From Streptomyces sp. I6 (lineage in GTDB: Bacteria; Actinomycetota; Actinomycetes; Streptomycetales; Streptomycetaceae): 64,000 bases of DNA. Location of the stretch: contig RHDP01000001.1 in the NCBI GenBank assembly GCA_003725745.1, positions 6,737,501 through 6,801,500 on the forward strand, given 5' to 3'. Each line of letters begins with the position of its first letter. The first letter of the stretch is position 1. Shown piece after piece: positions 16,943-54,316 of the stretch. Position numbers and translations under genes: made by a program. The notes under the pieces are model-generated. The model saw only the letters and a program-made list of their open reading frames with translations, ran no database searches and was not told where the DNA came from.

Positions 16943-17020
16943 CCCCGTGAGCCGCGGGGAACCCGCAGCCCCGTGAGCCGCGGGAATCCGCAGGCCCGTG
17001 AGCCGCGGGGAACGCGCAAG
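16943..17020. repeat. 26-bp tandem repeat, three copies
   Basis: Units 16943-16968, 16969-16994 and 16995-17020 follow the pattern CCCGTGAGCCGCGGGGAA plus CCGCAG, with a few changes. Shorter CCCGTGAGC words precede them. They lie in the 361-bp gap between the MMPL gene and the methyltransferase; the rest (17021-17240) has no recognisable gene and should hold the promoter of the methyltransferase/ABC operon. Confidence 0.7.
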
Positions 17021-17245
17021 CCCGATGCGGGCGTTCCTCCAACCCGGCCGGCGCACGCACGTTCCCGGGTCCGTACCCGAGACCATGCGCGGCGGGGTCC
17101 GTCCGGCCGGGCGGCCGGATCGCGACGATCGTTCTTGCGGGCTCGTGGGGCCTGTGCCAGCATGCGATGGCGCGATCGCGATCTTGGAATCGGCCGCGGA
17201 GCCCCGGTGAGGGCCCGCGCCGATCCGCTGACGAGAGGTGCGACG

Positions 17246-18373
17246 TTGAATTCGCCTGCCGGCACGGCACAGCCCGCGCGAACGACTCAGTCAGGCTCCC
17301 CCGCCCCGGCCGCCCGGACCGGCGGCCCGCCCGGCCGCCCGGCGCAGGGCGCCCCGGCCGCCGATCCCGTGGCCGAGCGCTTCCACTTCCTGGTGAACGC
17401 CCCGGCCCTCTTCAACGCCGTCGTCACCGCACTCGAATGGGACGTCTTCGGCCATCTCTCCGCACACCCCGGCGCCTCCTTCGAGGAACTGCGCGGAGCG
17501 ACGGGCGTACCGGCCCACTCCCTCCGGGTCCTCCTGCACGCCGTGTGCACCACCGGCCTGCTGGAGCGGAACCCCGACGGCACCTACGACAACGCGCGGG
17601 CGGCCGCGGAACTCCTCGCACCCGACGGACCCGACAGCTGGCGCCACATCCTCACCGGCTGGCGGGAGATCTACTACCCCGCCTTCTCCCGCATGAGCGA
17701 GGCCCTCGCGGCCGGCACCAACACCGCACTGGACACGCACCCCGGCGACGAGCCGACGCTCTACCGCCGGCTGGCGCACGACCCGGAACTCGAGGCCGTC
17801 TTCCACCGCAGCATGAGCGCCTTCACCCTGAAGAGCCTCGACGCGCTGGTCGAATCCGAGGACTTCGCGAGCGTACGCCACCTGCTCGACGTCGGCGGCG
17901 GCGACGGCACCACCAGCTCCCGGCTGCTCGCCCGCCATCCGGGCATGCGCTCGACCGTCTTCGACCTCCCGTCGGTGGCGCAGCGGGCGGCCGGCGCCGG
18001 CGACCGCCTGCGGCTGCACCCCGGCGACCTGTTCGCCGACCCCTTTCCGCCCGGCGCGGACGCCGTCCTCTTCAGCCACGTGCTGGAGATATTCTCCGCC
18101 GGGCAGATCACGGAGCTGCTCGCGAAGGCCCACGCCGCCCTGCCCCACGGCGGAAGGGTATTCGTCTACGGCTACAACGCCTCCGACGACGAGACCCGCG
18201 GCTGGTACTCCGCACGCCTCTCGCTCTACCTCAACGTGCTCGCCAGCGGCCAGGGCATGGCCTATCCGGCCCGCGACTACGAGGACTGGATGCGCCGGGC
18301 GGGGTTCGGCGACGTACGCACGCTCACCGGCTACCCCTACGAGCACGGTCTGACCACCGGTACCAAGCCGTGA
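17246..18373 (+). CDS. SAM-dependent methyltransferase (Methyltransf_2 / hydroxyindole O-MT-like)
   Basis: About 375 aa. The N-terminal dimerisation winged helix (ALFNAVVTALEWDVFGHLS, with GVPAHSLRVLLHAV) precedes a Rossmann methyltransferase with the SAM loop LLDVGGGDGTTSSRLL, FDLPSV and the VLFSHVLEIFS segment. The class holds O-methyltransferases and also aromatic-ring C-methyltransferases, so it may methylate the resorcinol ring of the nearby dihydroxyphenylglycine product. TTG at 17246 is chosen because GAGAGG lies just upstream; GTG at 17207 is possible. It overlaps the ABC gene by GTGA. Confidence 0.82.
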   Translation: MNSPAGTAQPARTTQSGSPAPAARTGGPPGRPAQGAPAADPVAERFHFLVNAPALFNAVVTALEWDVFGHLSAHPGASFEELRGATGVPAHSLRVLLHAVCTTGLLERNPDGTYDNARAAAELLAPDGPDSWRHILTGWREIYYPAFSRMSEALAAGTNTALDTHPGDEPTLYRRLAHDPELEAVFHRSMSAFTLKSLDALVESEDFASVRHLLDVGGGDGTTSSRLLARHPGMRSTVFDLPSVAQRAAGAGDRLRLHPGDLFADPFPPGADAVLFSHVLEIFSAGQITELLAKAHAALPHGGRVFVYGYNASDDETRGWYSARLSLYLNVLASGQGMAYPARDYEDWMRRAGFGDVRTLTGYPYEHGLTTGTKP

Positions 18374-20076: not shown

Positions 20077-21896
20077 CCGCCCCCGCCGGCACGGACCCGG
20101 GCACCGACTCGGGCACCTCCTCCGGCACGGACCCGGGCAGCGCCGCCGCCCCGCCCGCCGAGCGGCTGCCCGTCGCCTCCCCCGGGAGGTCCGCGCCCAC
20201 GCCCGGCGCACCATGCTCAGGCACCGGGGCCCGCTGGCCCGCTCACTGGCCCTGCACGCCCTGGCCTGCCTCGCCGCGCTGGCCGCGCCCCAACTGCTCG
20301 GCCGGATCGTGGAGGGCGCCGCGCGCGGCACGCTCGCGGTCACCCCCGTGGCCCTCGCGATCTGCGCCGCGGTGGTCCTCCAGGCGGTCTTCACCCGATT
20401 CGCGCGGCTGGCCTCACTGAGGCTCGGCGAGACCGTACTCGCCGAGTTGCGCGAGGAGTTCGTCGACCGGGTGCTGTCGCTGCCCACCCCGCCGTGGAGC
20501 GGGCCGGGACCGGCGAGCTGGTCACCCGGACCACCCGGGACGTCGACGTCCTCGCCCTCGCCGTGCAACGGGCCGTACCCGACACCCTGGTGGCGGGCAC
20601 CACCATCGCCCTGACCATCGGGGCCGTCTGCCTGACCGACCCGCTGCTCGTGCTGCCCTGCCTGGTGGCCGTGCCGGTACTGTGGCTGTCCACCCGCTGG
20701 TACCTCAGGCGGGCCCGGGCCGGCTACCTGCGCTCGAACTCCTCGTACGCCCGCCTCACCGACCACCTCGGCGAGACCGTCGCGGGCGCCCGCACGGTGG
20801 AGGCACTCGGGCTCCAGGGGCGCCGCCGCCGCCGCACCGACGGGGACATCGCCGCCTCCTACGCCGCCGAACTGCACACCCTGAACCTGCGCAGCACCTA
20901 TCTGCCGATCGCCGACACCGGCTACATCCTGCCGGTGGCCGCCACACTGGTCATCGGCGGCCTGATGTACATCGAGGGGCTGGTCGGACTGGCCGCCGCC
21001 ACCGCCGCCACCCTGTACGTCCAGCAGGTCATCGGGCCCGTGGACACCCTGCTGTACTGGATGGACGAACTCCAGGTCGGCGGCGCCTCCATGGCCCGCA
21101 TCCTCGGTGTGCGCGACGCGGCGGCCGCGGACACCCCCGGCAGGACGGGCCGGGACGCGGCACCGTGCCCCACCTTCCGGGACGCCTCGATCGAGGTACG
21201 GGAGGTGCACTTCGCCTACCCGGCCCGGAAGGACAGCCTGCGCGGCGTCGACCTGCACATACGCCCCGGTGAGCGGCTGGCCGTCGTGGGCCCCTCGGGG
21301 GCGGGCAAGTCCACCCTGGGCCGGCTCCTCGCCGGGATCGACAGCCCCGGCCGGGGCACCGTCACCCTGGGCGGCGTGGCCCTGACGGAACTGCCGCCGG
21401 ACGTCCTGCGCCAGCGCGTCATCCTGGTCACCCAGGAGTACCACGTGTTCCGCGGCACCCTCGCCGACAACCTGCTCATCGCCCGCCCCGACGCGAAGCC
21501 CGCGGACCTGGAGCGCGCCCTGCGCGCCGTGGCCGCCTGGGAGTGGGCGTCGGAGCTGGGCCTGGACCACCGGGTCGGCTCCGGCGCGGCCGAGCTGCCC
21601 CGGCCCGGGCCCAGCAACTGGCGCTGGCCCGGCTGCTGCTGCTCGACCCGCCCGTCGTCGTCTTCGACGAGGCGACGGCACTGCTCGACCCGCACACCGC
21701 GCGGACGGTGGAACGGGCCCTGGCCGGTCTGCTCGGCGGAACGGTGGTCTCCATCGCCCACCGGCTGCACACCGCCCACGACGCCGACCGGGTGGTGGTA
21801 CTGGAGGACGGCAGGATCACCGAGAACGGCACCCACGGCGAACTGGTGGCCCGCGGCGGCGCGTACGCACAGCTCTGGAAGTCCTGGCACGGGTGA
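20073..21896 (+). CDS. ABC exporter subunit B (three frameshifts)
   Basis: About 608 aa once three single-base deletions are restored (near 20190, 20492 and 21600, all in C/G runs). Six transmembrane helices are followed by a nucleotide-binding domain with intact Walker A (GPSGAGKSTLGRLLAG), Q-loop VTQEYH, Walker B VVVFDEATALLD and IAHRLH. The signature position reads AELPPARAQQLALARL instead of LSGGQ. It is therefore complementary to subunit A, which has LSGGQ but no P-loop, leaving one composite ATP site. Exporter for the adjacent cluster is inference. Confidence 0.85.
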
Positions 21897-21951: not shown

Positions 21952-23153
21952 TCACCAGGCCACCGGAAGCCGGTGGACCCCGTAGAAGCCCATGTCCTCC
22001 CCAGCGGCACCTCCGACGGCGGAACGGCCAGCCTCAGGCCGGGGAAGCGGGCGAGGAGCGCGGGGAAGGCGACGCGCATCTCCGCGCGGGCCAGATGCTG
22101 GCCGATGCACTGGTGCGCCCCGTGGCCGAAGGCCAGATGGCCGGAGGCGGAGCGGGTGAGGTCGAGGCGGCCGGGGTCCGCGAAGCGGGCGGGGTCGTGG
22201 TTCGCGGCGGACAGCGAGACCGTCACGGACTCCCCGGCGCGCAGGGTGTGCCCCTCCAGTGCCACGTCCTCCAGCGGTGAGCGGGGGACCCCGAAGTGGA
22301 AGATGGTCAGGTACCGCAGCAGCTCCTCGACGGCGTTCCCGGCCAGGGACGGGTCGGCCGCCAGGCGCGCCCGCTGGCCCGGGTGGGACAGCAGCGCGAA
22401 GGCGCCCAGCCCCAGGGAGCCGGACGTCGTCTCGTGCCCCGCCGACAGCAGCAGGGCGCCCACCCCGGCGACCTCGGCGGGGGACAGCTCACCCGCGGTG
22501 GCGAGCACGCTCAGCAGGTCGTCGCCCGGCACCCGGAGCCGGTGGCGGGTCAGCTCCGTGAGGAAGGCGTCCAGTTCGCCCATGGCCGCCGCGGCCTCGG
22601 CGGCGGTCGCGCCGATCCTGAAGAGGGTGGCGCTGTTGCGCTGGAACCCGGCGCGTTCCGTGTAGGGCACGCCGAGCAGCTCGCAGATCACCAGCGAGGG
22701 GACGGGGAGCGCGAACCGCTCGACGAGATCGGCCCGGCCGCCGAGGCCGGCCATCGCCTCCAGGTGCGCGTCGACGATCTGCTCGATCCGGGGTGTCAGG
22801 GCCCGCGTCCGGCGGGCGGTGAACCAGCCCATCAGCTGCCTGCGCAGCCGCGTGTGGTGCGGTGCGTCCATGTCGACCAGCCAGCCCGGCAGGGCGGGCC
22901 TGCCGTAGAACGGGTCCGTCCCCGGCCGGCCCACCGGCACCCGCTTGAATTCCGACCGGGCGCTGAAGCGGGGGTCGGCGAGCACCCGGCGCGCCGGGTC
23001 GTACCCGGTGACCAGCCATCCGGTATGGCCGTCGGGGTAGCGCAGGCGGCTCACCGGTGCGTGCCCGCGAATCGCCGCGAGTTCCGGGGGCGGGTCGAAC
23101 GGGCGGGTCCGGTCGCGGGCGGTGGGGTGGGCGGGAACGGTCCGGCCGCTCAT
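21952..23153 (-). CDS. Cytochrome P450 (frameshift at the 3' end)
   Basis: About 400 aa. I-helix oxygen-binding motif AGHETTSGSLGLG, K-helix EELLRY (ExxR) and the heme loop FGHGAHQCIGQHLARAE with axial Cys mark a bacterial class I P450. One G is missing near 22003 in a GGGG run; restored, the protein ends in the usual way (MGFYGVHRLPVAW) at 21952. It is the last gene of the minus-strand operon. A role in hydroxylating a ring methyl group, as needed for pheganomycin's hydroxymethyl, is a reasonable inference. Confidence 0.88.
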
Positions 23154-24483
23154 GACCCGGCTCCGGACCCGGCTCCGGACCCGGCGGCGGCCCGCGGGCG
23201 GGCGTGGTCCCTGAGGAAGGCGCCGAGCCGCCGCACGCCCTCGTCGATCCCGTCCGGGTCCAGGTAGCTGCACGACAGCCGCAGCGTACGGGTGCCTCCG
23301 CCGCCGGGTGGAACGGGGCCATCGGGGTCCACAGCACTCCGTACCCGGCCGCGGAGGCCTCCAGCAGGGCGGGGTCCGCCCGCACCGGCAGCCGCATCTG
23401 CACGAAGAACCCGCCGCCGGGCCGGTTCCACTCCACCCCGTCCGGCAGGCCCGCGGCGCCCTCGCGGTCCAGCGCCCGCAGCAGGTGGGCGAGGTTGCGC
23501 CGGTAGAGAGCGGACCTGTTCCGGCCCATTTCGGTGAGCGAGCCGCCGTGTTCCAGCAGCATGCCGGCGATCAGCGCCTGGCACACCGGCGAGGTGTTCA
23601 CCGTGACGGCGGTCTTCAGCCGCGCCAGTTCCGCAGCGAGAGGGACCGCGGGGCCGCCGGCGGTCCGCACGGACTGGTCGGCGACGACGTAGCCGACGCG
23701 GGCGCCGGGGAAGCACACCTTCGCGAACGTGCCGATGTGGACCACCCGCCGCCCGGTGTCCAGGGCCTTGAGGGCGGGCAGTTCGGAGCCGGGGGGCGCC
23801 GTGAACCCGTACGCGTTGTCCTCCAGCACGAGGAAGTCCTCCTGCTCGGCCAGCTCCAGCAGCCGCGGGCGCCGCCCGGCCGCCATCCGGGTGCCGCTGG
23901 GGTTGGCGTAGTCGGGCGCCACGTAGCACGCCCGGATGCGGCGGCCGGCGCGGCGGGCCGCACGGCACGCCTCGGCCAGCGCGTCGACGTCCAGGCCGTC
24001 GCCGTCCTCGGGCACGGGTACCACGCGGGCGCCGAGCACACCGGCGGCGCTGGTGATGCCCACGAAGCAGGGGTCCGAGACGGCCAGCAGGTCCTCCGGG
24101 GAGGCGATCAGGGCGCGCAGCGCCAGGAACATCGCCTCCTGCGCTCCGACGGTGATCACCAGGGTGCCGGGGTCGGCGGCGATGCCCTGGTCGCGGCGGA
24201 GGGCGTCGGCCACGATGCCGTTGATCACGCCCCGGGCGGGCCCGTACTCGTAGAGCAGCCGGTCCGCCCGGCCGCGGCCGGGGCCCGCCGCCGCCGCGTG
24301 GGCGGTGAAGCGGTCCAGGTAGCGGGCCGTGTCCAGCCCGTCGTAGGGCGCCGGGTGCGGGGCCCCGGGGGCGAAGGAGAGGGCGTCCGGGTACCGGTCC
24401 ATGATCTCGTTGAGGAAGCCGATCGACTCCAGCGCCGGGTCCTGGAGCGAGGCGTGCAGGCCCTCGCGGGCGAGGGACGTCAC
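23150..24483 (-). CDS. Class I/II aminotransferase, HpgT-like (one frameshift)
   Basis: About 444 aa PLP enzyme. YEYGPARGVINGIVADALRR, YVAPDYANPSGTRM and the PLP-Lys region HIGTFAKVCFPGARVGY are clear. In dihydroxyphenylglycine pathways the HpgT-type enzyme transaminates 3,5-dihydroxyphenylglyoxylate, and the position next to dpgABC supports that here. One base is missing near 23300 in the CCGCCGCCGGG run; the C-terminus (LRLSCSYLDPDGIDEGVRRL) follows in the next frame. GTG at 24483 overlaps the dpgC stop and ATGA joins it to the P450. Confidence 0.88.
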
Positions 24484-25858
24484 GACGGGATCCGTTCGGA
24501 ACGCGCCCGGTGGCGCTCGGTCTTGGCCAGGACGTCGGCACTGTAGATGCGGCGGGCCTGGACGACCGCGAACTCCGCCAGGTAGGCGCGCAGCAGGTCG
24601 ATGGGCTCCTCGGCCAGCGTCAGCATCGCCCGGTTGGCGGCCACGGCCGGACCGGCCAGTTCGCGTACGGCGCGCTCGGCGGCCCCGTCGAGCGCGGCCG
24701 TGGGCAGCACCTCGTCGACGAGCAGGGCCGCGGCCGGGTCACCGGTGTGGATACGGCGGCCCGACAGGATGATCTGCCGGGCCGTCCGGGCTCCGGTGAG
24801 CCGGGTGAGCCGCAGGTTGCCCAGGCCCGGGACGATGCCCTCGTCGGCGGCCGGCAGGCTCAGGAACGCGCCCTCCTCGGCGATCACGCGGTCCAGGACG
24901 AGCAGGAGCTGCATGCCGCCGCCGATGGCGAAGGAGTCGACGACGCCCACCCAGGGCTTGCCCGCCACGCCGGTGCCGCCGGCGGCCGGACCGTCGAGGA
25001 GCAGCCCCCGGGCCATCTTGTTGATGTAGCCGAGCTCCCGGCCGAGGAGGAACCCGACGAAGGAGATCGCGCCCGAGCGCAGCTCCTTGAGGTTGATGCC
25101 CGCGCTGAAGACCCGCTTCCCGGCGTGGCGCGGGTGGGTCACGGGCCCGCCCCGCAGGACCCCGACGCGTACCCGGTCGTCGAGGAGGGCCACGTCGACG
25201 GCGGTTTCGAGGTCGGCGATCAGCCGGTTGTCCTCGGCGTTGAGGCAGTGGCCGTTGCGGAAGGTCACGTGGGCCGCCTCGCCGCGGCGTTCGAGCAGCA
25301 CGGCGGGGAGGTCCAGCCGGTCCGCGCGGCGGAACTCCGCGAGGCGGGCGGCCGAGCCGGGGGCCGGGCGCAGCATGCTCTCGATGAGGTGCGTGCCCGC
25401 GGTGGGGAGCGCAGCAGTGCCCCGAAGAAGATGCCCTGGTCGATCTCGCGGCCTTCCTTGTGGGCCTGGAGGCGTCCGCGTTCCTCGGCGAGCTGGGCGG
25501 CGTCCGGTACGAGGCCGGGGAAGCGCAAGGCCGCGTCGGCGGCCAGGTCGGCGAGCCGGGGACGCCGGGTGCGCCCTGCGGTGAGGCCGTCGTAGACCGC
25601 CTCGGCGTGGCGTGCGAGGAACGCGTGCCGGGCCGCCCGGCACTCCTCGTGGAGGCGCGCCGCCTGCTCCGCCTCGGTGCCGGTGCGGTCCGGGCCGGGC
25701 GGCAGGAGGGCGAGCATACGCTCGATGCCGGCGGCGTGGCGGGCGAGGAGACCGGCGTCGGCGGCGAGGGCGCCGGCGAAATCGGGGGCGCCGGCCGGCC
25801 CGTCCTCCTCCGCGTGGTCCGGCCGGTCCTCCTCTGAGTGGTCCGGCCGGTCACTCAT
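24480..25858 (-). CDS. dpgC: DpgC: 3,5-dihydroxyphenylacetyl-CoA dioxygenase (one frameshift)
   Basis: Cofactor-independent dioxygenase of the crotonase superfamily that converts 3,5-dihydroxyphenylacetyl-CoA to 3,5-dihydroxyphenylglyoxylate. About 459 aa after restoring one C near 25404 (FFGALLRSP|TAGTHLIESML). The N-terminal helical domain is followed by the crotonase core (KRVFSAGINLKELRSGAISF, DSFAIGGGMQLLLVLDRV, LPAADEGIVPGLGNLRL), as in DpgC of glycopeptide clusters. The gene overlaps dpgB by 8 nt and the aminotransferase by GTGA. Confidence 0.92.
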
Positions 25859-26623
25859 GCGGCTCTCCCCCCGCAAGGCCCGGCTCAGCGGCGGCCAGGC
25901 GGCGCAGTTCGCGGTCGCAGGCGGCCAGGTGCGGACCGAGGGCCTCGTCGAACTCCAGGCTCTGCGCCTCCATGAGGAGCTGCCGGCGGACGGCGAGTTC
26001 GCGGTCGGAGATCCGGCCCATCAGCACGGTCGCGGTGTGCGCGGCCTGCTCGGTGTCGTGCGTGAGCTGGTCGATCAGGCCCAGGTCGCGGGCCCGGCCG
26101 GCGTCGATGTCGTCGCCCCACAGCACGATCTGCCGGGCGCGGGCCGCCCGAGCTGCCGGGAGATCCGGTAGACGGCCATTCCGGGCCAGAAATGGCCGTC
26201 GTTGACGGGAGCGAGGAGCCGCAGGTCCGGGGAGCCGATCCGGTAGTCGCTGACCAGCAGCAGGTCGAGGGCGGGTCCGCCGCAGGCCCCGGAGGCGACG
26301 GCGATGCTCATCGCGGGCAGCCGCTCCAGCCGCCGCACGGCCCGCTCCCAGCGGCTGATCTGCTGGATGTCCACCGGGCCCGGCCAGGTGCGGGCACCGG
26401 CGCGGGCGTCCGGCAGCCGCACCAGGAGCACCGAGCGGTCGGCCCGTTCCTCCGCCCGGTCGCAGGCGCCGGCGACGGCGGCGGTCAGCTCGGGCAGCGG
26501 CTGCCCGGCGTCCAGCCGCAGGGTGATGCGCAGCCCGTCCGAGGTGCGCTCGCGCGTGTTCTCCGCCGTGCCGGCCGCCGGTTCGCCCTCCGCGGGCAGC
26601 GGCAGCCTGTCGTGCGTCCGCAT
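25851..26623 (-). CDS. dpgB: DpgB: enoyl-CoA hydratase-like partner of DpgA (one frameshift)
   Basis: About 257 aa crotonase-fold protein. DpgB stimulates DpgA in making 3,5-dihydroxyphenylacetyl-CoA from four malonyl-CoA. Seen here: LERLPAMSIAVASGACGGPA, LLLVSDYRIGSPDLRLLAPV and GHFWPGMAVYRISRQLG. The frame then shifts near 26140 (one base missing in a G/C-rich run) into ARQIVLWGDDIDAGRARDLG. ATG at 26623 has AAGGGA upstream. Position between dpgA and dpgC supports the assignment over a generic hydratase. Confidence 0.88.
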
Positions 26624-26676: not shown

Positions 26677-27759
26677 TCACCACTGCGCCAGCGCCATCTC
26701 GATCGTCGAGCCGGGCCCCATCGTCATCAGCACCCCAGGTCGCCCGCGCGTACCGAGCCTTCGGACGCCAGCCGCTGGTAGGAGAAGAGGAAGGAGCCGC
26801 TCGACAGGTTGCCGTGGTCGCGCAGCACGCCGGTGGTGTGCCGTACGTCGTGCCGGGTCAGCCCGAGGTTGACCCGGACGGAGTCCACCACCTTCCTGCC
26901 CCCGGAGTGCACCACCCAGTGGTCGATGCGGGAGGCCGGCAGCCCCGTGCCGCGCAGCAGACGCTCCAGCGCCGCCTGCGCGTGGGCGCCGACGACGTAG
27001 GGGATCTGCGGGTCCAGCCGGAAGCTGAACTTGCCGTGACCGTCGTCCCAGTCGTAGCGCATGGCGTCGACGGCGTCGGGGATGAGGAGGCTGGAGAAGC
27101 GGAGCAGGGCGGGTGAGGGCGCCTCGCCGGCGTCCCGCCCCCGTCGCCGGGCGCGGTGACGGCGACCGCTGCCGCGCCGTCGCCGAACAGGCTGTTGACG
27201 ACGGAGGACCGCATGGTGCCGTCGAAGACGTACGCCGCGGAGCACACCTCCACGCACACCAGCAGCGCCAGCTCACCGGGGTGGGCGCGGGACCAGCCGG
27301 TGACCGCGTTCAGGGCGTTGAGGCCCGCGTTGCACCCCATGCCCACGACGTCCAGCCGCGAGCAGGAGACGTCGATGCCCAACTCCTTGATCAGCAGGGC
27401 GGAGAACCCCGGGGTCAGGAAGCCGGTGGAGGTGACGCAGCACAGGTGGCGTACGTCCGGCAGCGCGGCTCCGGCGTCGGCGAGGCAGTTCTCGATCGCC
27501 CGGCGGCCCATCAGCAGGCCCTGCCGGGTGTGCTTGCGCAGGAGTTCGCCCTGGGACTCCACCACCGGGGAGCCGTCCGGGGCGGGCGCGGGCAGGGTCA
27601 GGCCGCGCCGCTCGATGGCGCCGCGCAGGAAGAGCGAGCGGACCCGGGGATCGGTGACGGCCAGCATGCCGAGCAGCTCGCGCTGGCTGTAGCTGGTCTC
27701 GGGGACGGCGGTGCCGACCCGGCGAGCCGGGCGGCGGTCCCGGTGTTCGGCGGGGTCAT
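26677..27759 (-). CDS. dpgA: DpgA: type III polyketide synthase (three frameshifts)
   Basis: Chalcone-synthase-like enzyme that condenses malonyl-CoA to 3,5-dihydroxyphenylacetyl-CoA. Restored length is about 361 aa. VGMGCNAGLNALNAV holds the nucleophile Cys; NSLFGDGAAAVAV, the His in HWVVHSGGRKVVD and the Asn in DHGNLSSGSFLF complete the triad; MGPGSTIEMAL is the family C-terminus. Three single G or C deletions are inferred near 27715, 27135 and 26730. ATG at 27759 overlaps the amidinotransferase stop (ATGA). Confidence 0.92.
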
Positions 27760-28930
27760 CCGAGGTAGTCCTCCGGGCCGCCTTCGCGCACGGTGTCCAG
27801 GGTGAAGCAGTGGAAGCCACCGCCGAACAGCCGCCGGTGGCGGTGCCGGACCGGCACCGCCGTGAACCGGTGCTTCTCCAGTACCCGGGCCAGCTCCGGG
27901 CAGGCCTCGTTGACCAGCACGGTGTCGGGGCTCACGGACAGCACGTTGAGGTCGATGAACAGGCTGGTCAGAACCAGGTCCTCGTCCTCGTAGCGGGGGA
28001 AGTCGTCGCTCTCCGGCGTGGGTGCGACGATCCGGTCCCAACTCCGCAGCGCCTCGGGCAGCTTGTCGGCGACGGCATCGGAGCGTACGAGCAGGGTGCC
28101 GGGGCGCAGTGCCAGGACCATGCTGTCGATGTGGCTGTCGCTGAGCCGGTGCACCCGGTGGACCCGGAACCGGTCGCCGACGTGGCGCTCCAGCCAGTCG
28201 CAGGCCAGGGCGTGGTGCGCGGTGGAGACGTTGACCACGAGGTCGCGGCCGAGGCGCAGGACCTGGGCGCCGTCGAACATCATCTCGATCCCACGTCGTA
28301 GGGCGAGGGGCTGGGAGTGCCGATGGGTTCGGTGGGGCCGCCGATCGTGCTCTCGCGGGCGTAGCCGAGGTCGAACGACGCGTCCGTCATCAGGGGGCGG
28401 GGCATCACCGTCCAGCGGGCGCCCTGCGCGAAGTACCGCTGGAAGACCGGTGTGAGGAACTGCGTCTCGAAGTAGCGCGACCGGATCATCGGCGGCGTCT
28501 CGATGATCTCGTCGCCGAGGATCAGCGTGTTGTCCCGGATGTTCAGCGGGGGCACGACGGAGGCGGACCAGGCAGGGGTGCGTACCTCGTTCGTGCCGGC
28601 ATCGAGGTCCATCGGCCGGTGCACCGTGACCCCGAGGCCGGCCAGGGCCGCTGCCATGCCTTCGAGGTCCTCGGCGAGCTCGTCGACGTAGCGCTGCTTG
28701 ATGGGCACCCGGCCGCGGCGGGCCCCGTCCGCGCCGGCGCCCGTCCCCCTGTCCCCGCCGACGGTGAGCCGCGGGTAGTACCACTCGGACCGCGAGGAGT
28801 TGTCGCCGGCGATGTTGTCGTGGAAGAAGAGGTCGAAGGACAGTTCCCGTTCGTGCGACGTGTAGTTGGCCGCCGAGCCGACGACGACCTCCTTGAGGGT
28901 GGACCATTCGTCGAAGCTGTTCAGCGTCAC
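27756..28930 (-). CDS. Glycine/L-arginine amidinotransferase family protein (one frameshift)
   Basis: About 391 aa of the AGAT/StrB family, which moves an amidino group from arginine to an amine. SNSFDEW-type start (NSFDEWSTLKEVVVGSA), the catalytic His in SDSHIDSMVLALRPG and the catalytic Cys in GGGFHCFTLDTVREGG are visible. In this cluster it should guanidinylate the amino group of the dihydroxyphenylglycine, giving the phenylguanidinoacetate of pheganomycin/resorcinomycin. One G is missing near 28292 (YDVG|IEMMFDGAQ). GTG at 28930 has AGGAG upstream. First gene of the minus-strand operon. Confidence 0.9.
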
Positions 28931-29637: not shown

Positions 29638-30939
29638 ATGCCCCGGCTCCTGATCGGCAACCGGCCCAGCGACGACCTGGTGGGAACGTGGGGCAAGCCC
29701 GCCATGGGCTGGTGGGCCCAGCGCCTGCTCTGGTTCGTCCGCGACGGCGACGTCCTGGTACTGCCCGAGCCCCCGGACGAGGAGTTCCTGACCTACGTGA
29801 CCGATCTGACCGGTACGGACCGCACCGGTCTCACCCTGGTGATCCGGACGGCCGGGGACCGGCCCGGGGAGTGGCTGCTCGACCCGGGGCTGGCGGAGCG
29901 GACCAGGCAGGCCCTGGCCGGGCGGGCCGTCGAGGAGGTCTTCGCCCTCTGCCCCAACGAGGCGGTGGTCGAACTGGCCCGGGCGATCGGCGCGGAGGCC
30001 GCGGTGCCCGGCCACGCCTTCCTCGGCCAGGGCGGCGCCCTGATCGCCGACAGCAAGGCGGTGTTCCGCACGCTCGCCGCCGGCGCCGGGCTGCCCCTGC
30101 CCGACGGCGGGGTGTGCGCCAACCAGGAGAGCGCCTACCGCCTGATCACCCGGCTGCTGTCGGCGAGCCGGCCGGTGATCCTGAAGAAGGAGTTCCTCGC
30201 CGCCGGCAACGGCAACGAGGTCCTGACCCTCGCCGAGGGCGTCAAGGTGAACGGCGCCGGCCGCACGGTCCTCCTCGACGACCCCGGGGAAGCGGTCCGC
30301 GTCTACCTCAACGAACGCTGGGACTGGCTCACCGAGGGCCGCCGCCACCGGGTGGTCGTGGAGGAGTACCACCCCGGCAGCCGGGGCGTCTTCGCCGAAT
30401 TCGTGATCGGCGACGAGGACGTCGAACTCGGCGGCCAGGGGGAGATGGTGGCCGAACCGGTCGCCGACCACTCCTATCTGCCCGCGCCGGATCTGGCACC
30501 GGGCCAGGAGGCCGCGCTGATGGCCGGCGGCCGCAGGCTGTGCGAGGTGCTGCAGGCGATGGGCTACCGCGGCGTCCTCAGCGCCGACGCCATCATCACC
30601 GCCGAGGGCACCGGCCCGGCCGTCCTCTTCACCGAGTACAACGGACTGGTCACCGGGTCGACCCACGTCTACCACCTCGGCAAGCGGCTGGCCGGAGCGG
30701 ACTACGCCCGCGACCGCCTGCTGGCCGAGTACGTCTCCTGGCGCGTCCCCTCCTTCGCAGCGGCCCGCGCGCACCTCGACAGCGAGAAGATCGCCTGGGA
30801 CCCGGCCACACGCACCGGGGTCGTCTTGCTGAACTCCTGGCGGGACAACCCGGGTGTCGTCCCCTACTGCCTGATCGCCGAGGACGCCGAGGCCGCGCAG
30901 CGCCTGAGGGAGCGGCTCGAGGAGGCCCCCGGGCCCTGA
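29638..30939 (+). CDS. PGM1-type ATP-grasp peptide ligase, copy A
   Basis: 433 aa. It starts MPRLLIGNRPSDDL and has a pre-ATP-grasp domain (WWAQRLLWFVRDGDVLVLPE) and an ATP-grasp domain. Visible parts are the phosphate-binding RPVILKKEFLAAGNGNEVL, VVEEYHPGSRGVFAEFVIGD and the metal-binding end LFTEYNGLVTGSTHVYHLG. PGM1 of the pheganomycin cluster joins a phenylguanidinoacetic acid to the N-terminus of a ribosomal peptide; this protein and the paralog at 34839 share its layout. ATG at 29638 follows GAGGTGG. It is followed by a tiny peptide gene and a second ATP-grasp gene. Confidence 0.85.
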   Translation: MPRLLIGNRPSDDLVGTWGKPAMGWWAQRLLWFVRDGDVLVLPEPPDEEFLTYVTDLTGTDRTGLTLVIRTAGDRPGEWLLDPGLAERTRQALAGRAVEEVFALCPNEAVVELARAIGAEAAVPGHAFLGQGGALIADSKAVFRTLAAGAGLPLPDGGVCANQESAYRLITRLLSASRPVILKKEFLAAGNGNEVLTLAEGVKVNGAGRTVLLDDPGEAVRVYLNERWDWLTEGRRHRVVVEEYHPGSRGVFAEFVIGDEDVELGGQGEMVAEPVADHSYLPAPDLAPGQEAALMAGGRRLCEVLQAMGYRGVLSADAIITAEGTGPAVLFTEYNGLVTGSTHVYHLGKRLAGADYARDRLLAEYVSWRVPSFAAARAHLDSEKIAWDPATRTGVVLLNSWRDNPGVVPYCLIAEDAEAAQRLRERLEEAPGP

Positions 30940-31031
30940 GCCGCCGCCACCCCGCAGACCTGTCCGCGGCCGGGCCGATCCGCCCGCGGACCGGACACCA
31001 CACCGCCGCAGGAGAGAAGGGAGTGAACACC

Positions 31032-31109
31032 ATGCAGAAGGAGTTCGAGGACTTCATGCGCCAGTACGAGGCGTCCCGCGCGCGCCTCAACAAGAGCGAG
31101 TCCCAGTAG
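31032..31109 (+). CDS. 25-aa peptide, possible precursor or carrier peptide
   Basis: ATG at 31032 (or GTG at 31023, adding three residues) follows AGGAGAGAAGGGAG. The peptide begins MQKEFEDFMRQYEASR and ends with a Lys-Ser-Glu-Ser-Gln tail. It looks like a single charged amphipathic helix with a polar tail, as short leader or carrier peptides do. It lies between a PGM1-type ligase (98 bp upstream) and a graspetide-like ATP-grasp protein (148 bp downstream). It lacks the NVKD core of the other peptide in this cluster. Role is inference. Confidence 0.6.
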   Translation: MQKEFEDFMRQYEASRARLNKSESQ

Positions 31110-31257
31110 GGACCCGCGAGTCGGCCCCCGGCGGAGGCCCGGCGCCACCGGTTCCACCGGGGCGCCGGGCACTCCGGCCGGGCGCCGGGCCGTTCGCGGC
31201 GGGCCGCCCAGCGGGCGGCCCGCCGCGGCGGAGCACCCACCGACCACGGAGATCCCC

Positions 31258-32336
31258 ATGCCAGCGGCCCGGAACACGGACCCCTTCCTCCTCCAGGGCG
31301 AGCGCTTCGAGGACACCTTCCGGCAGCACGGCGTCGACTACCAGCGCCGTTTCCGCGCGCAGTTGCGCACCCTGCCCTCCGACGCCCCGAACCGGCCCTC
31401 GTCGTCTTCACCTGCGCCCACGACGCCGAGGTCGACCGCCTCTCCCTCGAACTGGGCCTGGGGGGCTACCCGCTGTACCGGATCGACGCCGACGACGTCG
31501 CGGACCGCTCCCTCGTCCTCGACCCGGACGCCGGCACGATGCGCATCGACGGCCTGCTCGTCCGGCCGGTCCTGCTCTGGATCAGGCACTTCCTCCCCAA
31601 CGCCATCGTCGTCGCCGGCTCCCCCCTCCTGCACCGCTACGTCCGGGACCAGTGGGCGGCCGTCCTGGAAGTCGTACGCGAGTGGCCCGCCTGCCATGTC
31701 AACCCGCCCGCGGCCCGCCGCGCCAGCCGCCTCGCCCAACTGCGCCAGGCCGCGGCACTGGGCGTGCGCGTGCCCGGGACGGTCCTCGCCAGCAGCGCCG
31801 AGGAGGCCGCGGCCGCCCTCGGCTGCCCACCGGCGGAACTGATCGCCAAGGCGGCCGGCGACCACTTCGTCCAGCCGGAACCGGCCCGCTTCACCGGTGT
31901 CTTCCCCCGCAGGGTGACCGCTCCGGCACCCGGCCCGGAGCCGGTCCCCCTGCTCTTCCAGCGCTATGTCCGGCACACGCACGAGGTGCGTGTCTTCACC
32001 GTCGGCGGGGAACTCTTCGCCTACGAGGTCCGCAAGGGGGACCCGAGGGACGTCTGGGCGGACCCGGGAGCCGTCTCGGTGGCTGCCGCCGAGGTACCCG
32101 CCTCCCTCGCCGCCCCGGTCACCGCCCTCCTGGAGCGCACCGGCCACACCTTCTCGGGCTTCGACTTCCTCCTCACACCGGACGGCAGCCCGGTCTTCCT
32201 GGAATGCAACGCCAACGGCGACTGGGCCTGGTTCGAACGCGGAGCCGGCGACGAGCGCGTCAGCCGGGCCGCCCTTCGCCACTTCGCCACCCATCCGGAC
32301 CTCGCTCCGACGGCAGCCGTCGGCTTCCGGGGCTGA
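31258..32336 (+). CDS. ATP-grasp protein of the RimK/graspetide-ligase type (one frameshift)
   Basis: About 359 aa after restoring one G near 31392 (SDAP|EPALVVFTCAHD). The N-terminal pre-ATP-grasp part is followed by LIAKAAGDHFVQP, the FQRYVRHTHEVRVFTVGGEL segment, SGFDFLLTPDGSPVFLECNA and NGDWAWFE. This order matches ATP-grasp enzymes that macrocyclise graspetides (MvdD/PsnB type) or ligate amino acids to carriers. The substrate may be the 25-aa peptide encoded upstream. ATG at 31258 has CGGAG upstream. Convergent with the rSAM gene. Confidence 0.75.
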
Positions 32337-32366: not shown

Positions 32367-34364
32367 TCACCGGCCTGCCCCGCCGGCTCCCCCGCAAGCC
32401 CGGGCAGCCCGGACCGCAGCGGCAGGGCGAGGGAGAAATACCTGCCGCCCTCCTCCAGGCAGATGCCGTGCGCGACGCAGGACCCGAGGAACTCCTCCAC
32501 CTCGGCCCGTTCCACCTGCCCGAAGCCCTCGGCCCGCTCCACCGGCCCGAAGCCCTCGCCGCCGCCCCGCCCGGCCAGCTCCCGGTGGACGCGGGCGGCG
32601 CTGCGCGGGGTGTCGCCGCACAGCTCGTACGCCCGCGCCCGCCACCCGGCGAGAGTGGTCTTGCGGCGCAGCCCGCCCCGGGTGTCGTAGAGGGTGAGCC
32701 AGTCGGGCCCGCGCCGGTAGGCGAGGGCGGGACGGTCCGCCGAGGCCCAGGCGCGCCCCCACGCCTCCACCGCCTTGGCGAGCTCGGCGACGGCGTCCGG
32801 CGAGGCGACGTCCGGCGCCCGGTAGTCGAAGAAGTACGCGATCCGGCTGTGGTCCATCCCCGGGACCGGGAAGGCCAGCCGGTAGGCGGTCTTCGGCGTG
32901 ACCTCGCTCATCCCGAAGGAGGGGTCGGTGAAGTACGGGCTGAACCGCTCGAGCCAGATGCGTCCCACGCCGGCGGGCGGCTCCAGGTGGGTGAGCAGGG
33001 GCACGAGGGCGGCCTGGTCCGTGTAGTCCTCGTCGGTCTCTCCGGGGAATCCGGCGAGGAGGTTCCAGTCGACGCGGACGCCGTAGTAGTGGGCCCACTT
33101 GAGCAGGCGGATGTTGAGGAGCCGTGAGGACCCCTTGCGCATCAGAGCGAGGACATGGCTGCTGAGGCTCTCCAGCCCGGCTGGATCTTCCACACCCCGC
33201 CTCCGCCAGCAGCCGCACCTGGTCCCTGGTCAGGTTGGCCTTGACCTCGAAGAACAGGGCGGTGTCCCAGACGGACCCGCGCAGTCCGGCGCAGAAGGTG
33301 CCGAGGTACGCCATGTCGAGGATGTTGTCGACGGCGTCGACCGCCAGGACCCGGTGCCGGCGCATCAGCTCCTCCAGCTCGGACAGCGCCCGTGCGGGGG
33401 ACTTGGCCCTGTACTGCATGCCCAGGGCGTTGAGCCCGCAGAAGGTGCAGTGGTGCTTGGCGCCCCACCAGCAGCCCCGGGAGAACTCCACCAGCAGCCG
33501 CTGGGTGTTCCGGCCGATCACCCGGTCCCGGCCGAGGGCCTCCAGGGCGGTGAAGTAGTCGCGGTAGTCCGGCACCGGCAGCTGGTCCATGTCCCGGGTG
33601 CGGGTGCCGGGGACGGGCGTGGTCACCCGGCCGTCGGGGGTGCGGCCGCAGACACCCGGGATCCGGGCCGGATCGGCGCCCCGCGCCACCGCCGCCGCCA
33701 GCCGGGGGAGCGTCACATCGCCCTCGCCCACGACCACGTAGTCGATGAAGCCGAAATTCCTCAGGTACTCCGGCCCCATGTCCCCGTCGTAGTTCGCACC
33801 GCCGAATACGACGACGACTTCGGGACGCGCTTCCTTGAGGCGGCGTGCCAGAGCCAGGGCGGCGACGTTCTGGATGAACGTCGACGTGAACCCGACGATG
33901 TCGAGATCCGACCAGATACTGCGGGCGGCGAGTTCATCGATCCAGGAGGGCAGGCGGCGGCACCGCAGATCGGCCACGGCATCCCAGTCCAGGCCGGCCC
34001 CGGCGCACATCTCGGCCACCTCGGGAAAACGCCGGCGGTAATCCTCCACGTCCTCCGTCACCCCGAAGGCCGCCGTCCCGAAGAGCCATTCACCGAACAG
34101 GTGGACCCGTTCGGAAGGAGCTTCGGTGATGAGATCGTAGAGATCCGTTCCCAGCACGGCGGACAGCTCCAGATTCGGGTAGACGCTCCGCGCGTCGTGG
34201 CCGAAGGACCCCAGTGCGGCCTGGAGCAGGCCGCACTGGATCGACGGGGTGTCGGTGCGCGCCCAGGGCATGTTCACCAGCCCGATACGCAACGGCCTCG
34301 CCGGGACGCAGTCCGGCGGGAACAGGGGCTGGCCGACCAGTTTCAACACACCGCCGCCTGACAC
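32367..34364 (-). CDS. B12-binding radical SAM RiPP maturation protein (three frameshifts)
   Basis: About 666 aa. An N-terminal cobalamin-binding domain (PLRIGLVNMPWARTDTPSIQ, VVVFGGANYDGDMGPEYLRN, VVGEGDVTLPRL) precedes a radical SAM barrel. Its cluster motif is SRGCWWGAKHHCTFCGLNAL, with the CxxxxxxHCxFC spacing typical of RiPP maturation radical SAM protein 1 family members. These are usually methyltransferases. Three deletions are inferred: two near 33185-33200 and one in a G5 run near 32392. GTG at 34364 has GGAGG. It lies just downstream of the NVKD precursor gene on the same strand. Confidence 0.85.
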   Translation of the reverse strand: MSGGGVLKLVGQPLFPPDCVPARPLRIGLVNMPWARTDTPSIQCGLLQAALGSFGHDARSVYPNLELSAVLGTDLYDLITEAPSERVHLFGEWLFGTAAFGVTEDVEDYRRRFPEVAEMCAGAGLDWDAVADLRCRRLPSWIDELAARSIWSDLDIVGFTSTFIQNVAALALARRLKEARPEVVVVFGGANYDGDMGPEYLRNFGFIDYVVVGEGDVTLPRLAAAVARGADPARIPGVCGRTPDGRVTTPVPGTRTRDMDQLPVPDYRDYFTALEALGRDRVIGRNTQRLLVEFSRGCWWGAKHHCTFCGLNALGMQYRAKSPARALSELEELMRRHRVLAVDAVDNILDMAYLGTFCAGLRGSVWDTALFFEVKANLTRDQVRLLAEAGCGRSSRAGEPQQPCPRSDAQGVLTAPQHPPAQVGPLLRRPRRLEPPRRIPRRDRRGLHGPGRPRAPAHPPGAARRRGTHLARAVQPVLHRPLLRDERGHAEDRLPAGLPGPGDGPQPDRVLLRLPGAGRRLAGRRRRARQGGGGVGARLGLGGPSRPRLPARARLAHPLRHPGRAAPQDHSRRVAGAGVRAVRRHPAQRRPRPPGAGRAGRRRGLRAGGAGRGLRAGGTGRGGGVPRVLRRARHLPGGGRQVFLPRPAAAVRAARACGGAGGAGR

Positions 34365-34454: not shown

Positions 34455-34568
34455 TCAGTCCTTGACGTTGCTGGTCGAAACGATGCCTGTGTCCTTCACA
34501 TTGCTGTCCGAGACGATCTCGGCGACATCGGCTTCCTCGATCTCGGTCCAGACGATTTCACGCTCCAT
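34455..34568 (-). CDS. Pheganomycin-type precursor peptide with two NVKD cores
   Basis: 37 aa, ATG at 34568 with GGAGGTGAACC upstream, TGA at 34455-34457. The acidic leader begins MEREIVWTEIEEAD. The C-terminal half reads SDSNVKDTGIVSTSNVKD, two copies of SNVKD with a spacer, the second copy ending at the stop codon. Pheganomycin precursors carry several NVKD-starting cores that become joined to a phenylguanidinoacetic acid by PGM1. All enzymes for that acid and two PGM1-type ligases are encoded around it. A protease freeing the Asn N-terminus is not identified here. Confidence 0.92.
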   Translation of the reverse strand: MEREIVWTEIEEADVAEIVSDSNVKDTGIVSTSNVKD

Positions 34569-34838
34569 GGTTCACCTCCCTCCTCATATCCGGACAGGGG
34601 ATTTTGCCGGTGAACGGTCATCGATGGTAGGAACCGCGCCCGGTGGCCAACAAGATGGCGATCCGGCCACCGGAGCACCGCCGCCGGGGTATCAGGCCGG
34701 TTTCCGCGGGACTTCCGGCACGGATGAGGCGCTCTTGACGCCCCTTCCGTCGCCTTTTCACAATTGGCCGGTCCAGCCGGACGAAGAGCCCTTCTCCGGC
34801 CGCCGGGAATTGCACCGCGACCACGGGAGTATTGCCGG
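34569..34838. promoter_or_regulatory. Divergent promoter region, precursor and ligase B
   Basis: 270 bp of lower GC than its surroundings (for example near 34585-34625 and 34740-34770) between the precursor gene (-) and the second ligase (+). No coding frame is supported. It should hold back-to-back promoters for the RiPP operon. Confidence 0.55.
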
Positions 34839-36145
34839 ATGCAGCGACTGCTCATCGGAAACGACTGGAGCGAAGAGCTGGAGGAGCCGGCCGGAAGCGG
34901 CTGGGCCGTGCAGCGCCTGCTGTGGTTCGCCCGCGACGGCGACGTCCTCGTCCTGCCCGTCCCGCCCGAGGAGGAGTTCCTCTCCTACGTCACCTCGCTG
35001 ACGGGCACCCGGCGCGACTCCCTGCACGTGGCCGTCCCGCCCCCTGGACGCACCGGCACCGGCGCGCTCACCGCGGACCGGCTCACCCACCCCGCCTTCA
35101 TCGCGGAACTGCGCGAGAGGACCGCCTGCCGACCCGTCGACGAGGTCTTCGCCCTCTGGCCCGACGCCGCCGTCGCCGCCGTCGCCGACGCCCTCGGCTG
35201 CCCCGGGGCCCTGGAGGGACACGGATTCCTCACCCAGAGCGGCGGACTGCTCGGCAGCAGCAAGGCCGTCTTCCGCGCCCTGGCGGCCGGCGTGGGCGCC
35301 CCCCTGCCGGACGGCGCGGTCTGCGCCGATCGGCGTCGCGCGCAGGAGCACGTCGCCCGCCTGCTGGACGGCGGCAGCCCGGTCATCCTCAAGCAGGACT
35401 ACGGATCGGGCAGCGACGGCAACGAGATCCTCAGCCGTACCGGGGCCGTGGACCTGCGCGGCGCACGGGACGTCCGAGTGCTCCCCGACCGCACGGCGGT
35501 CTCCGCGTACCTCGCCGAGCGCTGGGACTGGCTGACGGCCGGCGGCCGTGACCGGGTGGTGGTGGAGCGCTACCACCCCGGCAGCCGCGCCTACTTCGCC
35601 GAATTCTGGATCTCCGACGCCGGCGTCCGGCTCGGCGGCCACGGCGAGATGCAGTACCGCCCCTCCCCGACGCCCAGGTCATGCCCGCCCCGGACCTGAC
35701 CGCACGGCAGCTCGGCGCGCTGCTGGACGGCGGACAGCGCATCTCGGCCGGGCTGCGGGCGGTCGGCTACCGCGGGATCCTCAGCGCGGACGCCGTGGTC
35801 ACACCGGAAGGCGACGTCCTGTTCACCGAGTACAACGGCCGCGCCACCGGCTCCACCCACATCTACGAGATCGTCGGCAAGCGGGTCGTCGGACCGGGCT
35901 TCGGCACCGACCGCATCCTGCTGGAGCGGGTGTGGCCGAAGCACTGGCAGGTGCCCTCCTTCACCGCCGCCCTCACCAGGCTCCGCGACTCCGGCCACGC
36001 CTACGACCCGGAAACCCGCCGAGGCGCGATCATCCTGGCCGCGTACCACCCCGGCCGCAAGGGCGTCATGCTCTGCTTCGCCGACGACACCGTCGAAGCC
36101 GCCCTCCACCGCGAAGAACTGGTGGCCCGGCTGTTCACCCCCTGA
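34839..36145 (+). CDS. PGM1-type ATP-grasp peptide ligase, copy B (one frameshift)
   Basis: About 435 aa after restoring one base near 35668 (MQYRP|LPDAQVMPAPDL). It shares the layout of copy A at 29638: MQRLLIGNDWSEEL, AVQRLLWFARDGDVLVLPV, PVILKQDYGSGSDGNEILS, VVERYHPGSRAYFAEFWISD, LFTEYNGRATGSTHIYEIVG. ATG at 34839 has GGGAG ten nt upstream. It is divergent from the NVKD precursor gene, the closest ligase to it, and therefore the best candidate for coupling that peptide. It is the last gene of the cluster before a tRNA-like sequence. Confidence 0.85.
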
Positions 36146-52009: not shown

Positions 52010-53341
52010 ACGGATCGGCTTCCGCCGGCCGCACGCGCGGACCCGTCTCGTCCGGGCGGCGCGTGGACGGCGCCACCGGGTCCGGCGGGCAACGCGGCGG
52101 CCCGCAGCACCGGTGCCGGCGGGAGGCCCGTCGTTCCCCGTGCCGGACGGCCACGGCACGGTGCCGAGCGGGCGCGCACCCCCGGGCCCCCGGAACGCGC
52201 CGCGAGCGAGCCGGCCCGCTCCCCATCCGGCGTGCACCATCCTTCCCCGCCCGCGCTCACACACCCGGCAGGCACCCGGCAGGCACCCGGCAGGCACCCG
52301 GCCTGTGCGCGGTGGACGGCCCCCGGTCGCCATTCCCGTCCCGCCGGTCGCCATTCCCGTCCCGCCGGCCCCGCGACGGCACCCGCCCCGCGACGTCACC
52401 CGTACCCGCGCTCGCGCTCGCCAGAGGCGCACGGGACGTATCCGGGGCACTGCACCGGGGCCGCCGCCACCGGGAGCCGGCGCGGGCCGGCTTTTCGCGG
52501 CGCACCCCTCGTCGATTCCGGCCGGGACCTCTGCCCGCCATCGGTTTCACAAGCGCGCGCAAACATTAAGTGCATCTAACAGGCAAGCACTTTGCCATCT
52601 CCACACCATCTCCTTACCGATATGGCCCGATTTCCTCGCTAGGTTCATCACCACAAGGGCGACCATGTGCACGAGCACTGGTCGATCTTTGCAGTCAGTA
52701 ACGCGAATGTGAGCGTCACCCCGACGCCCGCTTGGCTTTTTCCGGCTGGCAGGAAGAGCGAACTGTGAGGGCGACTGAAGCCCTCACGCCCCATCGACGG
52801 CCGCCCCGTGCATCGCTGCCGCGGGCGGCTTGTCACCGCTCTGTCCGCGGTGGCCGGTGAACAAGCCGCGGCGAAGCATTCGTTGAGAGACGCACCATGA
52901 GGCGAGATCGAATGAGGACCCATGAAGACGGGTGCCGGCCGGGCCGCGCACCCGGTCCCCACCCCGACGGCTCCGGGCCACTTCCGCCGGGTGGGGGCCG
53001 CCGGCCGGCGGGTCCGGTGCGGTGCGGCTCGCGGCCGCGCCGGCGGGAGGCCGCGGGCGCCCCGCTCCGCGGTGGACCCCGGGCCGGCGCCCGGGCGGCC
53101 GCGGTGCGGCGCGACGGGGTGGCGTGGGCCCGCCGGAACGCCGGAGCGGGCACCGGTGGGCGGCCGTCGCGCCGAGGCGGCGCCGGCCGGCCGGGCGCCG
53201 CGCCGAGAGCCCACTGGGCCGGCTTTCCGGGGCACTTCATGCGAACTCAGGCACCCGCGGCACGGCCGTGAAGTAGATCACAACTTTACAGATCTCTTGC
53301 AAATAGCCGCGAGGTAACTCTAGCAAATTATGGAGATTCTC
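52010..53341. other. 1.33-kb gap before the last operon
   Basis: Apart from the tandem repeats at 52262-52366, two AT-rich stretches stand out, 52550-52740 and 53265-53341; the second is the probable promoter and leader of the ABC/biosynthetic operon. A hairpin GTGAGGGC (52765-52772)/GCCCTCAC (52780-52787) follows the first. 52900-53240 is very GC-rich with no supported gene. Confidence 0.5.
52262..52366. repeat. Two short tandem repeats in a long gap
   Basis: CACCCGGCAGG (11 bp) occurs four times at 52262-52305, the last copy with two changes. A 21-bp unit occurs twice at 52325-52345 and 52346-52366. Both are noncoding. Confidence 0.75.
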
Positions 53342-54316
53342 ATGATGTCCCATGTCCAGAATCGACCGGAATCCAGAGAGACGACCTCTGCCGAGGTCGC
53401 CGTGCTGAGTAAGATCGTCAAACGCTACGCCGATACAAAAGGCGCGGAGTTCACCGCGGTCAACGGTCTCGATCTGCGCGTCCGGCGAGGCGAGGTCGTG
53501 GCATTCCTGGGGCCCAACGGTGCCGGGAAGACCACCACCATCGACATGCTGCTGGGACTGCTCCCACCGGATTCGGGCGAGGTGCGGCTCTTCGGCGGGC
53601 CCCCGCAGCAGGCGGTGCGTTCCGGACGGGTCGGTGCCGTACTGCAGACGGGCGGCCTGCTGCCCGACCTGACCGTCCAGGCCACCGTGCGGATGCTCGG
53701 CTCGCTGCACCCCGGTGCGGATCCCGAGAGCGCCATCCGCCGGGCCGGCATCACCGCGCTGCGGCGGCGGAAGGTAGCCGAGTGCTCGGGAGGTGAGCAG
53801 CAACGGCTGCGTTTCGCTCTCGCCCTGCTGCCCGAGCCCGAGTTCCTCGTCCTGGACGAACCGACGGCCGGGATGGACGTGGCGGCCCGCCGGGAGTTCT
53901 GGGCAGCCGTGCGCCAGGACGCGGCGCGCGGCACGACGGTCATGTTCGCCACCCACTACGTGGAGGAGGCGGAGCACTTCGCCGACCGGGTCGTGATGAT
54001 CGACCGCGGCAGGCTCGTCGCCGACGGCTCCGTGTCCACCATCAGAGCCGCCATCAGCGGACGCACCGTCTCGGCCCGGATGACCGCCGTGGAGGCGGCC
54101 ATCGTGGCCGCTTCTCCCGAGGTCCGCTCCAGCACGGTGCGCGGCGACCGCCACTGCTTCGACTGCACGGACTCCGACTCCGTGCTGCGTCTGCTGCTCC
54201 ACCGGACGTCCGCCACGGAGATCGAGGTCGCGCCGCGCAGCCTCGAGGAGGCCTTCCTGGCCATCACCGACCCCGACCACGACCACGACCGAGGCGTCCG
54301 GGAGGCCCGGCGATGA
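53342..54316 (+). CDS. ABC transporter ATP-binding protein (DrrA-like)
   Basis: 324 aa. Walker A GPNGAGKTTTIDMLLGLLPP, signature SGGEQQRLRFALALL, Walker B FLVLDEPTAGMD and H-loop ATHY are intact. The C-terminal 90 residues resemble the extension of DrrA-type drug exporters. GGAG (53332-53335) precedes the ATG at 53342; an upstream in-frame ATG at 53330 has no such site. It pairs with the ABC-2 permease by ATGA overlap and heads the operon that continues into biosynthetic genes. Confidence 0.92.
   Translation: MMSHVQNRPESRETTSAEVAVLSKIVKRYADTKGAEFTAVNGLDLRVRRGEVVAFLGPNGAGKTTTIDMLLGLLPPDSGEVRLFGGPPQQAVRSGRVGAVLQTGGLLPDLTVQATVRMLGSLHPGADPESAIRRAGITALRRRKVAECSGGEQQRLRFALALLPEPEFLVLDEPTAGMDVAARREFWAAVRQDAARGTTVMFATHYVEEAEHFADRVVMIDRGRLVADGSVSTIRAAISGRTVSARMTAVEAAIVAASPEVRSSTVRGDRHCFDCTDSDSVLRLLLHRTSATEIEVAPRSLEEAFLAITDPDHDHDRGVREARR

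Follow-up and report, generated by a model that had tools for sequence, protein, structure and literature searches.

A new pheganomycin-family precursor gene beside a second PGM1-type ligase cassette in Streptomyces sp. I6

Results

The precursor gene and its family

The window, that is the whole 64,000-nucleotide stretch of Streptomyces sp. I6 DNA which was analysed, carries a very short gene on the minus strand, the translation of which (34455-34568) is MEREIVWTEIEEADVAEIVSDSNVKDTGIVSTSNVKD. The strand, coordinates, 37-residue length and tail SDSNVKDTGIVSTSNVKD read from the sequence are those given in an earlier note on this DNA, and the strong ribosome-binding site described there is seen as GGAGGGAGGTGA, preceding the start codon. 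The gene is made up as follows.

34455..34568, minus: precursor gene, 37 aa and stop (ORF translation; NF038371 over residues 1-37 of 37)
34572..34583, minus: ribosome-binding site (sequence)
34503..34568, minus: acidic leader, residues 1-22 (MEREIxWxEIE kept in relatives; presumed boundary)
34482..34502, minus: predicted core 1, NVKDTGI (alignment with ...SNVKDGPT VSSS... of the relative in genome G038; presumed cut sites)
34470..34481, minus: spacer VSTS (VS[TAS]S in the six precursors aligned)
34458..34469, minus: predicted core 2, NVKD, C-terminal (sequence and alignment)

Across all six frames of the 64 kb window there are two copies of the motif NVKD, each of them inside this ORF, and as they are written in different codons (AAT GTG AAG GAC and AAC GTC AAG GAC) they do not represent a fresh DNA duplication. 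The entire peptide, positions 1-37 of 37, scores 87.2 bits against NF038371 (‘pheganomycin family RiPP precursor’), the NCBIfam model of the pheganomycin family (guanidinotides), which has a curated cut-off of 28. A PGM1-type ATP-grasp ligase (ligB) is encoded alongside, by a gene that changes frame in the assembly; genes for DpgA-C, an aminotransferase and an amidinotransferase are present, most of them in two pieces in the assembly; and more than one core lies in a single precursor, as two NVKD copies. Two cores are also ascribed to pheganomycin in the accessible part of PMC9484694.

A tblastn search of 392 Streptomyces genomes with the precursor matched seven at E <= 1, four of them strongly (E <= 1.6e-11, its own genome included) and three weakly (E 0.09-0.57, ignored in the counts). 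Two further loci, in S. harenosi (L012) and on a plasmid of S. globosus, bring the total to five other Streptomyces loci, where the same precursor in G250 and S. toxytricini (L011), and likewise in G331 and strain BR123 (L010), is counted once for each pair. Residues 1-37 are kept in frame at all of these, with identities of 92% (G250 and the S. globosus plasmid), 84% (G331) and 76% (G038 and L012), and the ORF is therefore not a chance one. The S. globosus homologue is annotated ‘pheganomycin family RiPP precursor’ and lies in a collinear cluster. The ligase of G038 is nearly identical to PDB 3wvq (PGM1; 954 bits over 439 residues), a structure from S. cirratus. Homology thus extends well beyond the four NVKD residues, the point at which the earlier note had seen its own proposal as vulnerable, and the pheganomycin-type precursor proposed there is supported by the NF038371 match, by the G038 relative with its PGM1 close to 3wvq, and by the expected neighbour genes.

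Core layout and predicted products

In G038 the relative of the precursor reads ...SNVKDGPTVSSSNVKDR, and the alignment of the precursors follows the pattern [SxS]NVKD-xxx-VSxS-NVKD(R). The three residues after the first NVKD are TGI in the window and IGI, TGV, ISV or GPT elsewhere, while NVKD is constant, as expected of a processed core. The cores of G038 are NVKDGPT and NVKDR. The products known from S. cirratus are likewise NVKDGPT and NVKDR. Given the same cuts as in the G038 relative, the window precursor should yield X-NVKDTGI and X-NVKD, where X denotes phenyl-guanidinoacetyl. Of the products first suggested for this gene the NVKD one is kept in this prediction, while the longer ‘NVKDT...’ is refined by the G038 alignment to X-NVKDTGI as the better prediction. 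It is unlikely that the precursor gives short NVKD-type products only, with TGI after core 1 belonging to the spacer: NVKD is indeed the sole invariant part of core 1 and core 2 ends at D, but GPT occupies the position of TGI in G038, whose PGM1 is the nearest to the crystallised one, NVKDGPT is a known product, and the VS[TAS]S spacer is constant while the three residues ahead of it vary.

Pheganomycin gene context

The precursor gene sits between the genes for a radical-SAM C-methyltransferase, which begins 90 nt past the precursor stop on the same strand, and the PGM1-type ligase. The genes attributed to the pheganomycin part and its surroundings are:

34839..36145, plus: ligB, PGM1-type ATP-grasp ligase (PreAtp-grasp 111 bits and PGM1_C 50 bits in its two pieces; frame changes near 35660)
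32367..34364, minus: B12 radical-SAM C-methyltransferase (TIGR03975 378 bits; its S. globosus counterpart, so annotated, at 90% and 81%; frame changes near 33176-33200)
27759..28930, minus: amidinotransferase (88% and 92% to S. globosus ‘glycine amidinotransferase’; frame change near 28290)
26712..27718, minus: DpgA type III PKS, matched extent (NF042429 at 328 bits in the broken frame, short of the model cut-off of 425; 84-88% identical to DpgA of S. globosus)
25854..26623, minus: DpgB (82% to S. globosus DpgB)
24483..25822, minus: DpgC (ECH_1; 73% and 87% to S. globosus DpgC, two pieces)
23192..24483, minus: PLP aminotransferase (profile matches; S. globosus counterpart)
21978..23150, minus: cytochrome P450 (profile match; S. 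globosus counterpart)
20186..21893, plus: ABC transporter, export candidate (profile match; S. globosus comparison)
16973..18373, plus: methyltransferase (Methyltransf_2), head of the ABC operon (profile match)

The N-terminal piece of LigB matches PDB 3wvq at 482 bits. The methyltransferase and the ABC transporters lie on the far side of the amino-acid genes, and none of the cluster ORFs scanned was recognisable as a peptidase. Precursor, radical-SAM gene and ligB occur together in six of six loci (the window, G250, G331, G038, L012 and S. globosus). Further along the window, 53330-63510 holds an ABC transporter pair, an AMP-binding enzyme, an aminotransferase and an ornithine-cyclodeaminase-like gene, possibly another biosynthetic cluster.

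The S. globosus plasmid (NZ_CP030864.1) shows the same order of genes, i.e. ligB, precursor, radical SAM, amidinotransferase, DpgA, B and C, aminotransferase and P450, and its proteins are 81-93% identical to the window pieces, with one DpgC piece at 73%; over the pieces of the amidinotransferase, DpgA, DpgB, DpgC, the aminotransferase and the P450 the range is 73-92%. In S. globosus the radical-SAM gene shares 4 bases with the amidinotransferase gene, whereas in the window the two are about 3.4 kb apart. The S. cirratus pheganomycin system (PGM1/PGM2, MIBiG BGC0001148), compared here by way of G038 and 3wvq, has a precursor of the same two-NVKD family and a PGM1-type ligase, and, as judged from G038, shares the radical-SAM enzyme and the dihydroxyphenylglycine-type pathway with an amidinotransferase. 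The window differs from G038, the stand-in for that system, in the tails of its cores (TGI and none, against GPT and R), in its gene order, which is that of S. globosus, and in an extra ligase/peptide/ATP-grasp cassette. As reported in the accessible part of PMC9405382, the cluster of Streptomyces sp. BR123 had already been flagged as ‘Type III PKS, guanidinotides, RiPP-like’ with 52% to pheganomycin.

A second ligase, peptide and ATP-grasp cassette

The additional cassette lies 2-5 kb from the precursor on the plus strand, between the radical-SAM and amidinotransferase genes, and spans 29638-32336:

29638..30939, plus: ligA, second PGM1-type ligase, one open frame, 433 aa (82% to G034, 79% to G173)
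31032..31109, plus: candidate second precursor, 25 aa, MQKEFEDFMRQYEASRARLNKSESQ (92% identical and in the same place in G034 and G173)
31258..32336, plus: grasp3, MdnB/MvdD-like ATP-grasp enzyme (profile matches; full-length G034 relative; frame change near 31380-31390, placed from the aligned pieces)

LigA is 52% identical to the N-terminal piece of LigB. A tree built from the N-terminal pieces of 32 ligases places LigA together with the ligases of G034 and G173 (100/100), whereas LigB falls among the pheganomycin ligases (100/99), and LigA is therefore not a recent copy of LigB. PGM1_C domains are found in 70 of the 392 Streptomyces genomes, and another Streptomyces (G234, locus L094) has two diverged PGM1_C-containing ligases 3.4 kb apart, both outside the LigA and LigB clades.

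In both G034 and G173 the ligase/25-aa peptide/ATP-grasp trio has the same amino-acid genes as neighbours. The 38 kb (G034) and 36 kb (G173) searched yielded no NVKD precursor, and the LigB query matched the LigA counterpart only. Conversely, ligA, the 25-aa peptide and grasp3 are absent from the stretches examined of the five other pheganomycin loci, including the G250 and G331 clusters and the S. globosus plasmid. In total, the 392 genomes contain the NVKD precursor in four cases and the 25-aa peptide in three, and both in this genome only. Each part is thus found alone elsewhere, and here the two are combined. All six NVKD loci have the radical-SAM gene, whereas the 36-38 kb searched around each of the two loci with the 25-aa peptide alone yielded none, which suggests that the enzyme belongs to the pheganomycin branch and serves it rather than the shared amino acid.

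In its ligase, peptide and ATP-grasp genes the layout in G034 and G173 is of the same sort as that of the S. viridosporus T7A locus, for which the accessible part of PMC8939145 describes a branch-6 ATP-grasp enzyme with PGM1 and no radical SAM. In the window the cassette shares its cluster with a pheganomycin part. As the text of that paper points to a putative precursor in its Fig. 6, the 25-aa peptide may already be predicted there.

The peptide is identical to the window sequence in 23 of 25 residues in each of G034 and G173, and against plasmids it gave a single weak, chance-like match (E = 4). Its C-terminal end, NKSES(Q/E), contains K, S and E, and in the form NKSE[ST][QE] opens with Asn, like the NVKD cores. 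Among PDB structures the full-length G034 relative of Grasp3 matches MdnB, an MvdD-like enzyme and CdnC; MdnB and CdnC are graspetide macrocyclases which modify precursor peptides. This G034 enzyme falls below the cut-offs of the known graspetide ligase models (TIGR04187 115.9 of 350, MvdC 64.6 of 425, MvdD 53.9 of 475), and the upstream stretches scanned of its approximately 40%-identical relatives (G335, G116, G145, G147) hold no peptide resembling the 25-aa one. One may ask if the 25-aa ORF encodes, in place of a product precursor, a carrier or helper that the MdnB/MvdD-like enzyme uses as a base to build upon. The peptide does lack a repeated core and is conserved more strongly (23/25) than LigA (79-82%); however, with MdnB and CdnC among the relatives of solved structure, and with an end that opens with Asn as the NVKD cores do, such a role appears rather doubtful, and the 25-aa peptide is treated below as a candidate precursor.

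Frame changes in the assembly

Of nine long proteins of the S. globosus cluster, eight align to the window in two or more pieces, and the short precursor in one. A blastn comparison restricted to positions covered by at least three relatives (16,525 cluster bases) gave 14 private deletions of one base, seen in this genome only, two of which (28930 and 28938) are at an alignment edge; when G250 and G331 were taken as the query in a similar way, the counts were 0 in 12,729 and 1 in 12,581 bases. The corresponding listing with two relatives has 26 rows, of which 16 are one-base deletions, four are one-base insertions at non-coding places near the precursor, and six arise where ligA was aligned with its paralogue. 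Counted per residue, the cluster has more frame changes than two core stretches do, namely 10 in 4,044 aa (nine between S. globosus-matched pieces and one near the P450 end) against 2 in 4,329 aa (p = 0.019).

The private deletions, the fragmented long proteins and this excess per residue would all suit a decayed pheganomycin cluster in which the precursor is intact, the enzymes are pseudogenes and nothing is made. However, the essential rpoB gene is also split in this assembly (L150, about 2458-3072), into three frames of 94-97% identity with C runs at both breaks, while it is unbroken in G250 and G173. The name rpoB rests on the length of the gene and its place before rpoC, which is open (1304 aa), and rpoB is the only one of the six matched G250 genes in the rpo region to be split in this genome. 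With G038 proteins as queries, none of 10 genes in G250 and none of four in G173 are split, and this genome has two flagged out of six, namely rpoB and an ORF of 148 aa that contains a single in-frame stop. Where the controls carry a ‘broken’ mark, it stems from an ORF start extended too far or, in weaker matches, from one in-frame stop, and not from a split gene. The second core stretch shows no split against L118 and L119, and its match to L120 has three stops at 62% identity. Runs of at least four C or G number 146 in 12,120 bases of the cluster and 36 in 7,625 and 33 in 3,227 bases of the core stretches, so that per run the rates are closer, about 10 per 146 against 2 per 69 as plain ratios. 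The genome, moreover, is 87% complete in two contigs, and the frames of ligA, the precursor and the 25-aa peptide are all open. Since no strain could live without rpoB, the assembly very likely contains indel errors, and assembly error is the better reading; decay of the cluster is improbable. ORF calls in the window need care for the same reason, since with rpoB in three frames the assembly probably contains indel errors.

Four further comparisons were discarded. The private indel count for the rpo region (15 rows, 14 places) was set aside, as it included non-coding places and one row in the open rpoC; blastn counts of private indels were of partial use, and matching the proteins of relatives to see if they require several frames is the better test. 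ORF-length statistics, tried as a gauge of assembly quality, gave no separation between the genomes; codon counts of the precursor against G038 were shifted by one codon; and the L075 stretch was too poorly conserved to serve for comparison.

Discussion

The gene at 34455-34568 can be added with good support to the pheganomycin family as a new member; in itself it is ordinary, belonging to an already known kind. The locus is very probably best accounted for by a pheganomycin-family (guanidinotide) precursor which is processed by a host protease and ligated by LigB, with the second cassette probably acting on the same amino acid. The protease would take off the acidic leader and cut before Asn at the two sites where SxS meets NVKD, as well as before the VSTS spacer, so as to free NVKDTGI and NVKD. 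LigB would then use ATP to join phenyl-guanidinoacetic acid to the N-terminus of each core, this acid presumably being formed by DpgA/B/C, the aminotransferase, the amidinotransferase and the P450, together with C-methylation. These products would constitute a new core variant (NVKDTGI and NVKD) for a small antibiotic family, and the alignment lends support to a cleavage rule in which cuts fall between SxS and Asn and just ahead of VSxS.

The hybrid cluster holding the precursor is not ordinary. The reading that suits it best is a single amino-acid pathway which supplies two ligase-peptide pairs, where the second cassette probably draws on the same unusual amino acid as the pheganomycin part. 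A more specific version, put forward tentatively and rather less likely than not to be correct in full, has the two ligations running in parallel: LigB would join the radical-SAM-methylated acid to NVKDTGI and NVKD, while LigA would join the same or the unmethylated acid to a core derived from the 25-aa peptide (perhaps NKSESQ), cross-linked or extended by Grasp3. Among the titles listed for pheganomycin and guanidinotides none concerns a cluster with two ligases, and the one paper matched by NVKD as a whole word is unrelated.

If parallel ligation is true, the strain would make a hybrid guanidinotide/graspetide-like product and would offer a natural case of two orthogonal PGM1-type ligases with one common substrate pool. 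It is this layout, two diverged PGM1-type ligases with their own mini-peptides behind one amino-acid pathway, which matters more than the precursor, as a single strain would then allow direct tests of how specific each ligase is for its peptide and of what the second ATP-grasp enzyme does.
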